From: Desulfarculaceae bacterium
GTDB taxonomy: Bacteria > Desulfobacterota > Desulfarculia > Desulfarculales > Desulfarculaceae
Assembly: GCA_020444545.1 (NCBI GenBank)
Contig: JAHLKT010000006.1
Location: 62,001 to 126,000 of the forward strand
Direction: 5' to 3'
Length of the DNA stretch: 64,000 nucleotides
Shown here: positions 2,331 to 33,533 of the stretch, piece after piece
Numbering within the stretch: position 1 is the first letter of the stretch
How the letters are laid out: every line of letters begins with the position of its first letter
The notes under the pieces: generated by a model
The model's database searches: none
What the model was told of the DNA's origin: nothing
Seen by the model: only the letters and a program-made list of their open reading frames with translations
Program-made: the position numbers and the translations under genes

Positions 2331-3283
2331 TCCCGGCCTCGGGGCCGGCGCGGCGACAGCCCGGCTTCCCTGAGGACCGCCTCCTTGCCCCGCCCGCTGG
2401 GACGCGGGCGCGGCAAGGGCACCACATTCCTCCCCACATCATCGCGCACCCAGGAAGCCCGCTGCTTGCGGCGGCGCACCACCAGGCCCACGCCCGCGAT
2501 CAGGGCGATGAGCCCCCAGAGCACCCCCCCGGCGGTGAGTGCCGAGATCCAGGAAAAACGCGAGCCCATGTCCTCGCGGAACTTGTCTTCCAGCCCGGCC
2601 AGGCTGTGGCCCGTGGCCCGTTGCAGGGCGGCGGTGAGCGGCCGCCCCTGAGAGAGCGAGCGCACCACCTCGCGCAAGGCCTTGTCGCCGTATTGGTTGA
2701 GCAGCCAGCCCACCAGGTAGTAGCTCTGGGCATAGGCCAAGGAGGCGCGCTCGGCCGAGGGCGGGAAGCGGTGGCTGATCTCGGCCAGGGGCAATAGGCC
2801 CTGGCCCAGCACCGCCTGGGTCATGGCCGCGGCCAGCTCCCAGCCACCCTCGCCCGAGAGCTGCATGGCCAGGCCTTCCTCCAGCCACAGGGGAGCGGGA
2901 CGGCCCCTTAGGCCCGAGGCCAGGTAGAGGTGGGCCATCTCGTGCAGGAGCACCTCGCGGAAACCCAAGGCGGTGGCCAGTTGGCCGGGTGAGCGCAGGA
3001 GGATGAAGTTTCGGCGGGGGACGGCCAGGCCCGCGGCCCAGTTGGGGCCGCCCAACTCGGCCGCCCGGCGGGCGAAGGCCTTGCGGGTGGGGGCCACCTC
3101 GATGGTCAGCTCGCTGGGCGCGGCCCCGGTCCAGGCGGCCAAACGGGGGGCGGCGGCAACGGCCTCGGCGCGCACATGGGCGGCCAGCTCGGGGGAAGGG
3201 GCGATGACCGTAATTTCGGGCGCGGCGGCCCAGACGGGCAGGGCCAGCAGCAGGAAAACCAGCGCCAGCAGATAGCGCCTCAC
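2327..3283 (-). CDS. Membrane-anchored peptidase MA-like metallopeptidase
   Basis: A 318-residue protein with an N-terminal signal peptide (MRRYLLALVFLLLALPVWA), a zinc-peptidase core and one transmembrane helix near residues 250-272, followed by a basic, Pro/Arg-rich tail. The HEMAH motif (HExxH, about residues 115-119) followed about 25 residues later by EEGLA is the gluzincin signature of the peptidase MA family. The catalytic domain should face the periplasm. It is the last gene of the minus-strand train, and its start overlaps the DUF167 stop by four bases, implying translational coupling. The substrate is unknown. Confidence 0.8.
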   Translation of the reverse strand: MRRYLLALVFLLLALPVWAAAPEITVIAPSPELAAHVRAEAVAAAPRLAAWTGAAPSELTIEVAPTRKAFARRAAELGGPNWAAGLAVPRRNFILLRSPGQLATALGFREVLLHEMAHLYLASGLRGRPAPLWLEEGLAMQLSGEGGWELAAAMTQAVLGQGLLPLAEISHRFPPSAERASLAYAQSYYLVGWLLNQYGDKALREVVRSLSQGRPLTAALQRATGHSLAGLEDKFREDMGSRFSWISALTAGGVLWGLIALIAGVGLVVRRRKQRASWVRDDVGRNVVPLPRPRPSGRGKEAVLREAGLSPRRPRGRD

Positions 3284-30912: not shown

Positions 30913-31050
30913 TTGATTTAATTAGAAAAACTAATTTGCATCCTATCGGGGGCGCCTCCAAGGGGGGCTGGCCGCCCAGCCGTGGCGCACCCGGCCACAA
31001 AGGTCCGTGATTGTGACCGTGAGGGGCACCCATGCCCCGAGGGGGTGATC

Positions 31051-32097
31051 ATGGAAAAGGAAGCAAAGAGGTGTCTGGAGGCGGGGACGATCCAGCACAG
31101 GAACGTTCCCGACGCCTGGCAAACCAAGACCCAGGAGTTGGTGGGCCTGCCTTTCCCCTGGCCTTGGTTGTTTATCGCCGCCATTTTATTCGGGGTTGCC
31201 TTGGCTCTGGCCTATCAGGAGCCGATCAACGAAAAGCTCATTCGCCTTTATGGCATCCTGTGCATACTCATCGCCGGGCTGGCCAACGCGGTGGTGTTCT
31301 TCGAGATGCTGGTGGACGAGGCGGCGGACACCTGGCCCAGCCTCCTGGAAGAGAAAAAGGAGGTGGCCAACGCCTGGATTTCGCTTTGGTACGATCGGAT
31401 GTTCTGGTCCTCCAAAAACATCTGGTGCGCCCTGGCAATGATGCTGCTCCTGGCCCGTTCCAACTACGCCACGGTCGAATCCTTTCACCTGGAGCACCTG
31501 AGCACCATCATTTACACTTACCTGCTGCTCTTCATAATGAGCTTCATGTCCGGCTCCACCCTGTGGGTCATGCTGTGCATCGCGCGCATGTTCTGGTCTC
31601 TGGGCAGGGCCGTGAGGATAAGACCTTCCATTTTCGATACCCGCACCAGCGTATTGCGAGCGGCCTCCTCGGTCATGTTCAAGGTATCCCTGGTGGGCGC
31701 GGGCCTGTACTTGTTGGGGCTGTCCATTATCTATTTCTGCAAGACCCAGCTTGATGGCCACCAGCTTTTTCTGTTGGTGTTCTTCGGGATTTTCATCCTG
31801 GGCTACTTCATCGTGCCGCAACGCAACATCCACAAGGCGCTGGTGGAGATCAAGCGCTCCCACCTCAGCAAGCTGGTGGTTCAGATAGAGCGCTACTTTA
31901 CGGCAGTCACCGAAGACCCCACCAAGGAGAACATAGACAAGCTCCACGACTTGTTCGGGGTGCAGGCAGTGCTCAACAGCAAGACCGTTTTCCCCTCGGG
32001 CCTGGCAGAGTTGCTTAGCCTCATAGGCTCCATATTCATCCCGCTTCTGGCCTTGCTTTATGAAGTCATGTCCAAGCAGGGAGGGGTTTTCAAATGA
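31051..32097 (+). CDS. Polytopic membrane protein of unknown function
   Basis: A 348-residue integral membrane protein with about seven predicted helices, near residues 40-57, 68-90, 125-140, 150-180, 208-228, 236-253 and 317-337. A soluble stretch of about 60 residues lies between the last two. It has no motif that I recognise. The ATG at 31051 has GGGGGTG upstream; the frame opens earlier at 30982, but those residues are not conserved-looking. Stand-alone gene with its own promoter between the desulfidase gene and the aroF attenuator. Confidence 0.65.
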   Translation: MEKEAKRCLEAGTIQHRNVPDAWQTKTQELVGLPFPWPWLFIAAILFGVALALAYQEPINEKLIRLYGILCILIAGLANAVVFFEMLVDEAADTWPSLLEEKKEVANAWISLWYDRMFWSSKNIWCALAMMLLLARSNYATVESFHLEHLSTIIYTYLLLFIMSFMSGSTLWVMLCIARMFWSLGRAVRIRPSIFDTRTSVLRAASSVMFKVSLVGAGLYLLGLSIIYFCKTQLDGHQLFLLVFFGIFILGYFIVPQRNIHKALVEIKRSHLSKLVVQIERYFTAVTEDPTKENIDKLHDLFGVQAVLNSKTVFPSGLAELLSLIGSIFIPLLALLYEVMSKQGGVFK

Positions 32098-32134: not shown

Positions 32135-32163
32135 TTGCGGTTGGCGCTGTTTGGGGCTATGAT
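32135..32163 (+). promoter_or_regulatory. Sigma-70-like promoter of the aroF leader
   Basis: TTGCGG (32135-32140) and TATGAT (32158-32163) with a 17-base spacer. Transcription would start near 32170, about 35 bases before the leader-peptide ATG, giving a compact attenuator transcript. Confidence 0.6.
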
Positions 32164-32205
32164 TCCTCCTGTATACAGAAGGCCACGCTCACGCGGCGGA
32201 GAGAC

Positions 32206-32343
32206 ATGATTCACTTGCGGGGACAATTTGCACTTAGCAGCGCCAACCAGGGCGCGGCGTCCCGCTGTGCCTCGTATCTCTATTATTATTATTACGCCCC
32301 CGTCACCCGGACGGTGAGCAAGCGTGGAGCGCCCCAGGCCTAG
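32206..32343 (+). CDS. Tyrosine-rich leader peptide of the aroF attenuator
   Basis: A 45-codon open frame starting at ATG with GGAGAG just upstream and ending at TAG 32341-32343. Between 32275 and 32295 the codons read Tyr-Leu-Tyr-Tyr-Tyr-Tyr-Tyr (five TAT and one TAC among seven codons), extreme for a GC-rich genome. The run directly precedes RNA that can form either of two alternative hairpins, followed by a terminator and the DAHP synthase gene. This is the layout of ribosome-mediated attenuation: stalling at Tyr codons when charged tRNA-Tyr is low should allow readthrough. The peptide itself needs no function. Confidence 0.88.
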   Translation: MIHLRGQFALSSANQGAASRCASYLYYYYYAPVTRTVSKRGAPQA

Positions 32344-32380
32344 CACCTGAACCAATACCAGGCACCACAGCCCACCGTCC
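32303..32380 (+). promoter_or_regulatory. Alternative hairpins (pause and antiterminator) of the aroF attenuator
   Basis: Pause hairpin: TCACC (32303-32307) pairs with GGTGA (32313-32317). Antiterminator: GGACGGTG (32309-32316) can instead pair with CACCGTCC (32373-32380), which is the 5' arm of the terminator. The two structures are mutually exclusive. A ribosome stalled on the Tyr codons (ending 32295) would cover the first TCACC and so favour the antiterminator. Confidence 0.82.
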
Positions 32381-32404
32381 CCCGGACGGTGGGTTTTTTA
32401 TTTT
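32371..32404 (+). terminator. Rho-independent terminator of the aroF attenuator
   Basis: A perfect ten-base stem, CCCACCGTCC (32371-32380) and GGACGGTGGG (32384-32393), with a three-base loop followed by TTTTTTATTTT. It lies 50 bp before the aroF ATG and well before any coding sequence, so it must be conditional. Confidence 0.92.
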
Positions 32405-32453
32405 GGGCCAATTACGGCCCGGCCCCAAACGGCCAAGGAAAAGGAAGCAACCA

Positions 32454-33533
32454 ATGATCATCCAATTGAAGGCAAGCGCGAGAAGCGGCGGACTGGAAAA
32501 ACTGGTCTCCCAACTGGCCGGGGACGGGGTTCCCCGGGAGCGGCTGGACATCTTCTCCGGCGACACCTACACCTTGGTGGGCATCAAGGGGGACGCCAGC
32601 AAGCTGAACCTGGACAAGTACCAGGCCCTGGACTACGTGCTCACCGTGCACCGCATCTCCGACCCCTTCAAGGAGCTGAGCCGCCAGTTCCACCCGGACG
32701 ACACCGTGGTGGAGCTAAGGAACGGGCATCGGGTGGGCAAGGACCTGAGCATCATCGCCGGGCCCTGCGCCATCGAGAGCCGGGAGCAGCTTTTCCGCAC
32801 CGCCGAGCTGGTGGCCGCCGCCGGGGCCAACATCCTCAGGGGCGGGGCCTTCAAGCCGCGCACCATTCACCGCAGCTTTCAGGGCCTGGGCGAGGAGGGG
32901 CTCAAGCTCCTGGCCGAGGCGCGCGAGGCGGTCGGCCTGCCCGTGGTCTCGGAGATCATGGACGCCCGCGACATCCCCCTGTTCCTGAAGTACGACATCG
33001 ACATCTGGCAGGTGGGGGCGCGCAACTGCCTGAACTACACCTTCCTGGACGCCCTGAGCCAGGTGCCCCATCCCAAGCCGGTGCTGCTCAAGCGGGGCGA
33101 CCACGTGTCCGTCAACGAGTTGTTGGGCGCCGCGCTTCGGCTCTACGAGGGCAACCAGGAGGTGATTCTTTGCGAGCGCGGCGACAAGACCGCCGACCGG
33201 GTGCACCGCAACGTGCTCAACCTGAACAACGTCTCCTACCTCAAGCACCACTACCATTTGCCGGTGATCGTGGACCCCAGCCACGGCACCGGGGTGCGTG
33301 AGCTGGTGGTGGACCTGGGCATGGCCGGGCTGGCCGCCGGGGCCGACGGCCTGATTGTGGAGGTGCATCACCAGCCGGAAAAGGCCCTGTGCGACGGAGC
33401 CCAGAGCCTGAACCAGGAGTTCGGGGACATGGTGCCCCTGGCCTCCACCATCTGGCAAGCGCGGGCCGCCCTGGGCGCGAGCCAGGCCGCCCAGTGCGCC
33501 GCCCTGGGCTCGGCCGCCGCCTGCTGCGCCTGA
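32454..33533 (+). CDS. aroF: 3-deoxy-7-phosphoheptulonate (DAHP) synthase, type I beta
   Basis: A 359-residue enzyme that condenses phosphoenolpyruvate and erythrose-4-phosphate, the first step of aromatic amino acid synthesis. Residues 1-80 form the ferredoxin-like regulatory domain found in the Thermotoga-type enzyme, where it mediates Tyr/Phe feedback. The barrel follows, with [27 protein letters not shown] and IVDPSHGTG motifs. ATG 32454 chosen; upstream in-frame codons lie in the terminator. The extreme C-terminus has an unusual Cys cluster ([13 protein letters not shown]). Transcription is governed by the Tyr leader, so both expression and activity may respond to tyrosine. Confidence 0.96.

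Follow-up and report, generated by a model that had tools for sequence, protein, structure and literature searches.

By textbook accounts, control of DAHP synthase genes is exerted by TyrR or by T-boxes, and aroF of E. coli is controlled by the TyrR protein. Ribosome-mediated attenuators such as E. coli trpL, pheL and pheST share a short ORF with pathway codons, alternative 1:2, 2:3 and 3:4 pairings and an intrinsic terminator before a biosynthetic gene. Among the aromatic amino acids, attenuators of this kind have hardly been described for tyrosine, as judged from a literature search covering open-licence papers. The nearest described systems lie before aroF genes. The aroR leader of Corynebacterium glutamicum contains an FYF run and, as far as the work is related in PMC11802643 and PMC4046766, responds to Phe and not to Tyr (Neshat et al. 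2014). The uORFC-13-1 motif upstream of Acholeplasma aroF is a predicted Phe sensor, described by computation only (PMC8632094). Furthermore, according to a database-derived remark, attenuation apparently also acts on aromatic supraoperons, among them one from Desulfovibrio vulgaris (PMC1173090).

Here, we analysed a stretch of 64,000 nucleotides (the window) from the 4.38-Mb genome of a Desulfarculaceae bacterium, in which a DAHP synthase gene (aroF), encoding the enzyme that opens aromatic amino acid synthesis, is preceded by what is very probably a ribosome-mediated attenuator. It would sense charged tRNA-Tyr and thereby control transcription of this gene. Judged from its sequence, the leader would represent classical attenuation of the trp/phe type with a tyrosine sensor and belongs to no Rfam family. 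It differs from the enteric leaders in its sensor, which is Tyr, and in its target, a DAHP synthase gene. With aroR, in so far as the sources above describe it, it has in common a leader peptide attenuator with aromatic codons before a DAHP synthase gene; the FYF run answering Phe and the other phylum set aroR apart, and the two are compared by mechanism only. The uORFC-13-1 motif likewise combines an upstream ORF and a terminator before a DAHP synthase gene, whereas its Phe sensor, phylum and structure are different.

Architecture of the leader region

A promoter, a Tyr-rich leader ORF of 45 codons, a pause hairpin, an antiterminator of 8 bp and a terminator of 10 bp with a T-run had been read from this DNA in an earlier note, and all of them were found, in this order (Table 1). 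The individual parts lie at or close to the places given in that note, and its layout needs small changes in two respects: the ORF extends across the whole of arm 2, and it contains a further hairpin near its start. The former also distinguishes the leader from the E. coli trp leader, in which the ORF stops between arms 1 and 2. Here, the stop codon follows about 22 nt past arm 2, and in two congeneric species (G007 and G010) it is located at or next to the end of this arm.

Table 1 Features of the aroF leader region in the window and of the related attenuators in the same genome (G000). Positions without a contig name refer to the window.
Feature	Position	Strand	Basis or controlled genes
Promoter-like TTGCGG (32135-32140), N17, TATGAT (32158-32163)	32135-32163	+	Inferred from sequence; spacing and place alike in 7/7 species
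Shine-Dalgarno-like GGCGGAGA region ahead of leader ATG	32194-32201	+	Sequence
Leader peptide ORF, 45 codons (MIHLRGQFALSSANQGAASRCASYLYYYYYAPVTRTVSKRGAPQA)	32206-32343	+	No indel within the 135-nt frame of six species; seventh differs on 5' side
Early hairpin within leader ORF (GCGGGGAC ... GTCCCGC)	32217-32265	+	Fold; compensated in one relative
Sensor codons Y24 L25 Y26-Y30, six Tyr of seven (YLYYYYY)	32275-32295	+	Sequence, conservation
Arm 1 of the 1:2 (pause/protector) hairpin	32296-32304	+	Fold
Arm 2 (GGACGGTGAGC), partner of arm 1, or of arm 3 once arm 1 is covered	32309-32319	+	Fold; ACGGTGAGC invariant in 7/7
Arm 3 (CCCACCGTCC), terminator 5' half, partner of arm 2	32371-32380	+	Fold
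Arm 4 (GGACGGTGGG), terminator 3' half	32384-32393	+	Fold
U-tract of intrinsic terminator (TTTTTTATTTT)	32394-32404	+	Sequence
Type I-beta DAHP synthase (3-deoxy-7-phosphoheptulonate synthase), N-terminal ferredoxin-like domain	32454-33533	+	NCBIfam NF006421/TIGR01361, Pfam PF00793 + PF18152
trpE attenuator, run LWFYWW (L036, L162)	C4:285583-285703		Controls trpE-trpG-DAHP synthase-aro genes
Third attenuator, run FYFYFYYF, leader MNTSRRDISFQSAGQFSSGAFYFYFYYFTTVCSRAEEG (L182)	C4:277092-277218		Before third DAHP synthase-pheA-tyrA
Fourth attenuator, leader RFIRYYYYP + terminator (L231)	C2: about 781000-781250		Before PRK06836-family aminotransferase

A generic sigma-70 scan detected no promoter ahead of the leader, since TTGCGG is a weak -35 hexamer; the putative promoter was therefore assigned by the position and spacing of its hexamers, which are conserved in all seven congeneric species compared. 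A GGAG motif precedes the predicted ORF, whose run of end-product codons is followed, between ORF and gene, by an intrinsic terminator with a GC-rich stem of 10 bp and the tract T6ATTTT, likewise present in 7/7 species. The predicted 1:2 hairpin (32296-32319) has a folding energy of -8.9 kcal/mol, and the antiterminator 2:3 consists of 8 bp between GGACGGTG (32309-32316) and CACCGTCC (32373-32380). The fold of the leader RNA yielded a z-score of -2.6. The predicted folds give the terminator a higher equilibrium stability than 2:3, and antitermination would therefore have to be kinetic, with 2:3 forming before arm 4 is made.

Counted from the first base of the codon in its A site, a ribosome has its leading edge about 12 nt downstream. 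Placed on the coordinates of the leader, this general footprint suggests that stalling at Tyr28, Tyr29 or Tyr30 would bring the edge to about 32299, 32302 or 32305, respectively, over arm 1 and short of arm 2, which begins at 32309. The pairings 1:2, 2:3 and 3:4 are mutually exclusive, and a ribosome on these sensor codons would cover arm 1 only. A ribosome halted earlier, at Tyr24 or Tyr26, would not cover arm 1, and termination would be favoured. The effective stall codons are therefore probably 28-30, all three of which encode Tyr in six of the seven species.

We infer that the promoter is used and that the window leader is translated, stalls ribosomes and is read through, as follows. A ribosome would trail the RNA polymerase along the leader. 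With ample Tyr-tRNA, it would pass the Tyr codons and arm 2, which could then not hold arm 3; arms 3 and 4 would form the terminator and transcription would halt before the gene. If tyrosine is short, the ribosome would stall at the last Tyr codons with its leading edge over arm 1, and the free arm 2 would capture arm 3 before arm 4 is made, allowing the polymerase to read on. Without translation, 1:2 would form and the terminator would prevail. Most likely, as far as the sequence allows us to say, leader and switch together restrict expression of the enzyme to times of tyrosine shortage.

The earlier note had furthermore proposed two-level control, with tyrosine feedback through the N-terminal domain of the enzyme. 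This domain matched PF18152 weakly (29.1 bits, cut-off 27), and in an alignment to 1rzm/3pg9 Asp32 and Phe34 take the positions of His29 and Ser31 of the Thermotoga maritima DAHP synthase, which we take to be tyrosine-site residues. The second level of control is therefore doubtful, and allosteric tyrosine feedback by this enzyme is unlikely and not supported by its sequence. Upstream of aroF, at 30982-32097, lies an ORF of 371 amino acids that resembles a membrane protein and has no Pfam or NCBIfam match.

Chance expectation and other types of sensor

In 2000 dinucleotide shuffles of 32135-32453, a short ORF with at least 6/7 Tyr or Phe did not occur once, and among all short ORFs on both strands of the 64-kb window only the leader reached 5/7 Tyr. 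The score of the 2:3 pairing was matched by 14 of 3000 shuffles. Five consecutive Tyr codons are found twice in the whole genome, the second time within a long open frame resembling a transporter permease. It might be argued that the region merely combines a plain 5' UTR terminator with a Tyr-rich ORF arisen by chance and regulates nothing, which would agree with the lack of purifying selection on the peptide outside the run. The result of the shuffles, the conservation in 7/7 species and the fit of the sensor codons to the pathway at four loci (see below) speak against this, and we consider it highly improbable.

Other types of sensor were also considered. A search of the window with Rfam returned no cis-regulatory family at the gathering threshold, and the best permissive match was far under the cut-off; none of the Trp, Phe, His, Leu and Thr leader families came near the leader, even permissively. 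T-box covariance models had no match in the window, either at gathering or at permissive thresholds. A box resembling TGTAAA-N6-TTTACA, as in the TyrR regulon, was absent near 32135, and a scan of the 64 kb gave three matches with three mismatches each, as many as expected by chance. A palindrome, TGTATACA/TTGTATACAA, occurs at 32169-32178 of the window and at C4:285781 and C4:274116, near the presumed starts of the aroF and trpE transcripts, and is a candidate DNA-binding site; TTGTATACAA has only four exact copies in the genome. As TGTATACA lies in the presumed start region of aroF and the trpE promoter carries an exact TTGTATACAA, a further regulator that binds DNA may act here. That a T-box, a riboswitch or a DNA repressor of the TyrR type is the actual sensor nevertheless seems most improbable, as the Tyr codons and the antiterminator would stay unexplained.

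Conservation of the leader within the genus

An orthologue of the DAHP synthase is present in seven of eight congeneric species (81-89% identity to the copy in the window), and in all seven it is preceded by the leader with all its pairings. Invariant among the seven leaders are ACGGTGAGC in arm 2, CCCACCGT in arm 3 and CGGTGGG in arm 4. Because the arms are nearly invariant, covariation within this set is uninformative. The predicted folds of all seven species range from -6 to -10 kcal/mol for 1:2, from -19 to -23 kcal/mol for the terminator and, inner helices included, from -21 to -28 kcal/mol for 2:3. The early hairpin is compensated in one congener (GCGGGAAC/GTTCCCGC in G009), weak in another (G008) and absent in a third (G010). 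In two other genera of the family, the leader is absent before the orthologues (68-75% identity; L012, L013 and L014), which makes it a genus-level feature. The earlier reading depended on the retention of Tyr run and pairing in orthologous leaders; the leader with its pairings is retained in the seven congeners, partly with Phe in the run, and is lacking in these two genera.

In the six species that share the frame, 50 of 114 sites vary in codons 1-38. The dN/dS ratio of the leader peptide is near 1 in these species, and no purifying selection was seen by this measure, probably because the peptide itself is irrelevant and only its frame and Tyr codons matter. The evidence for coding is therefore the retention of the frame together with the Tyr run and not a bias between codon positions. 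This also bears on whether the nascent peptide arrests the ribosome or the leader acts on translation. A GQF motif near the N-terminus and YYYAP after it do recur, as would suit an arrest peptide, yet the rest of the sequence drifts, Phe and Tyr swap within the run, and the gene is preceded by a strong terminator rather than a sequestered ribosome-binding site. We thus give very little credence to either form of control and retain transcription attenuation through the Tyr codons.

The sensor runs of the seven species are YLYYYYY, FGYYYYY, FFYFYYY (three species), YLYSYYY and FYYYYFY. Codons 28-30 read YYY directly before AlaPro in 6/7, and the seventh run is the one ending in FYYYYFY. Since the runs of relatives mix Phe and Tyr, some response to Phe is likely in the genus, and the description of the leader as Tyr-specific applies to the run of the present species, which has no Phe, but not to its relatives. 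The leader might accordingly be a mixed aromatic sensor that registers a shortage of Phe as well as of Tyr, with Tyr merely the commonest codon here. Apart from the three FFYFYYY leaders and FYYYYFY, this would be in line with leaders elsewhere that combine F, Y and W and with the response of the C. glutamicum FYF leader to Phe and not to Tyr, as given in PMC11802643. In the window, however, the leader contains a single Phe, at codon 8, which precedes the first Tyr by 48 nt; a stalled ribosome would reach arm 1 from codons that encode Tyr in 6/7 species, and a separate F/Y attenuator already serves pheA-tyrA. We therefore regard a mixed sensor as unlikely at this locus, albeit the most serious of the alternatives, and a sensor of tyrosine as the preferred reading.

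Related predicted attenuators in the same genome

Pattern scans and model scans for further leaders revealed four attenuators of such design in this genome, located before aroF, trpE, the gene cluster DAHP synthase-pheA-tyrA and an aminotransferase gene (Table 1). Each of the three DAHP synthases thus lies behind an aromatic leader, with differing codons. A covariance model built from the seven aroF leaders and run on the own genome matched the trpE leader (E = 2e-7) and the third site (E = 7e-6) over its full length.

The trpE leader (MTDRSQNPSNSGLCPQAAGAGVPVFGLWFYWWRPPLTVRSTGDVTD) is followed by the arms GACGGTG, CCCACCGTC and GACGGTGGG and a U-tract, the same as the aroF arms, and the offsets of its start and stop codons are nearly equal to those of aroF; sensor and target genes are different. 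According to a pattern scan of the order, this module precedes trpE in 8/8 congeneric genomes and in four further genera. One of these genomes (G001) gave a weak match with a leader containing WRRW. In another genome (G011 C21, L156:1369-1600), a trpC-type gene follows the same module, with the leader MGWWWWRASK and an attenuator. Throughout 20 aroF, trpE and trpC modules, the 2:3 helix is paired at every position without a broken pair, whereby the search pattern had dictated all but one of its six pairs and the remaining pair occurs as A-U, G-C or G-U without a mismatch. In three modules, a coordinated change from A-T-A to G-C-G affects three arms.

The third attenuator has a terminator of different sequence, located directly before a DAHP synthase gene that is followed by pheA and tyrA. 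In this genome its 2:3 helix comprises 9 bp, and among relatives it reaches 13 bp; changes in one arm are compensated in the other (GTCTGC/GCAGAC versus GTCCGC/GCGGAC). In the aminotransferase attenuator, 2:3 comprises 10 bp, and the leaders of 8/8 species contain three or more Tyr codons in a row. Arms 2 and 3 change together (GGGTTCGCGG/CCGCGAACCC versus TCGTCCGCGG/CCGCGGACGA), and in two species the uninterrupted 2:3 helix is only 6 bp long. From its leader, we would guess that the PRK06836 aminotransferase acts in the last step of tyrosine synthesis.

Attenuation of the trp type, the core of the earlier note, is strongly supported by the conservation in 7/7 species, the maintained pairing and these three sibling attenuators with pathway-matched codons. 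It may be speculated that the attenuator of aroF arose in this genus by copying that of trpE and re-tuning the sensor codons from Trp to Tyr, as a step toward an all-RNA counterpart of the way AroF, AroG and AroH share the work in E. coli, with three isoenzymes behind leaders containing Tyr, Phe/Tyr and Trp codons plus a Tyr leader before the aminotransferase, a tentative scenario that we rate as just short of probable. Elsewhere in the genome there are matches to the model that cover the terminator alone (model positions 90-124), so the similar arms of aroF and trpE could also come from a recurrent terminator sequence.

Aromatic leaders in other lineages

Among 63 upstream regions of DAHP synthase genes from other families of the phylum, 12 contained an ORF with 6/8 Tyr, Phe or Trp followed by a terminator. 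Shuffled sequences gave no such case, and of seven control residue groups six gave none and one (I/L/V) gave three. These leaders range from Tyr-rich (YFYYYCSY, YYYYPCY) to mixed (FFWFYFF, WWFYFYYW). In Lachnospiraceae, leaders such as SYYYFYYYFT with a terminator precede DAHP synthases, about 50-250 nt upstream of position 3001 of the respective loci (L048-L053, L061 and L076), and comparable leaders were found in Peptococcaceae, other Clostridia and a Sutterella. Rfam searches of ten other loci at the gathering threshold yielded no leader family and a single lysine riboswitch. The latter is situated in the Sutterella locus (L057:2209-2383), some 600 nt ahead of a DAHP synthase gene that has a SYFYFWYF leader of its own.

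Implications for the control of aromatic amino acid synthesis

The sensing of Tyr codons recurs before two different genes within one genus, and the four attenuators of one genome split the aromatic pathway among them by the choice of codons. They thereby offer a natural set for studying how a sensor is re-tuned through codon changes. Similar leaders are found ahead of DAHP synthases in other phyla and, where tested, are missing from Rfam, which suggests that attenuation of this kind is a widespread and unannotated layer of control at the entry into aromatic synthesis.
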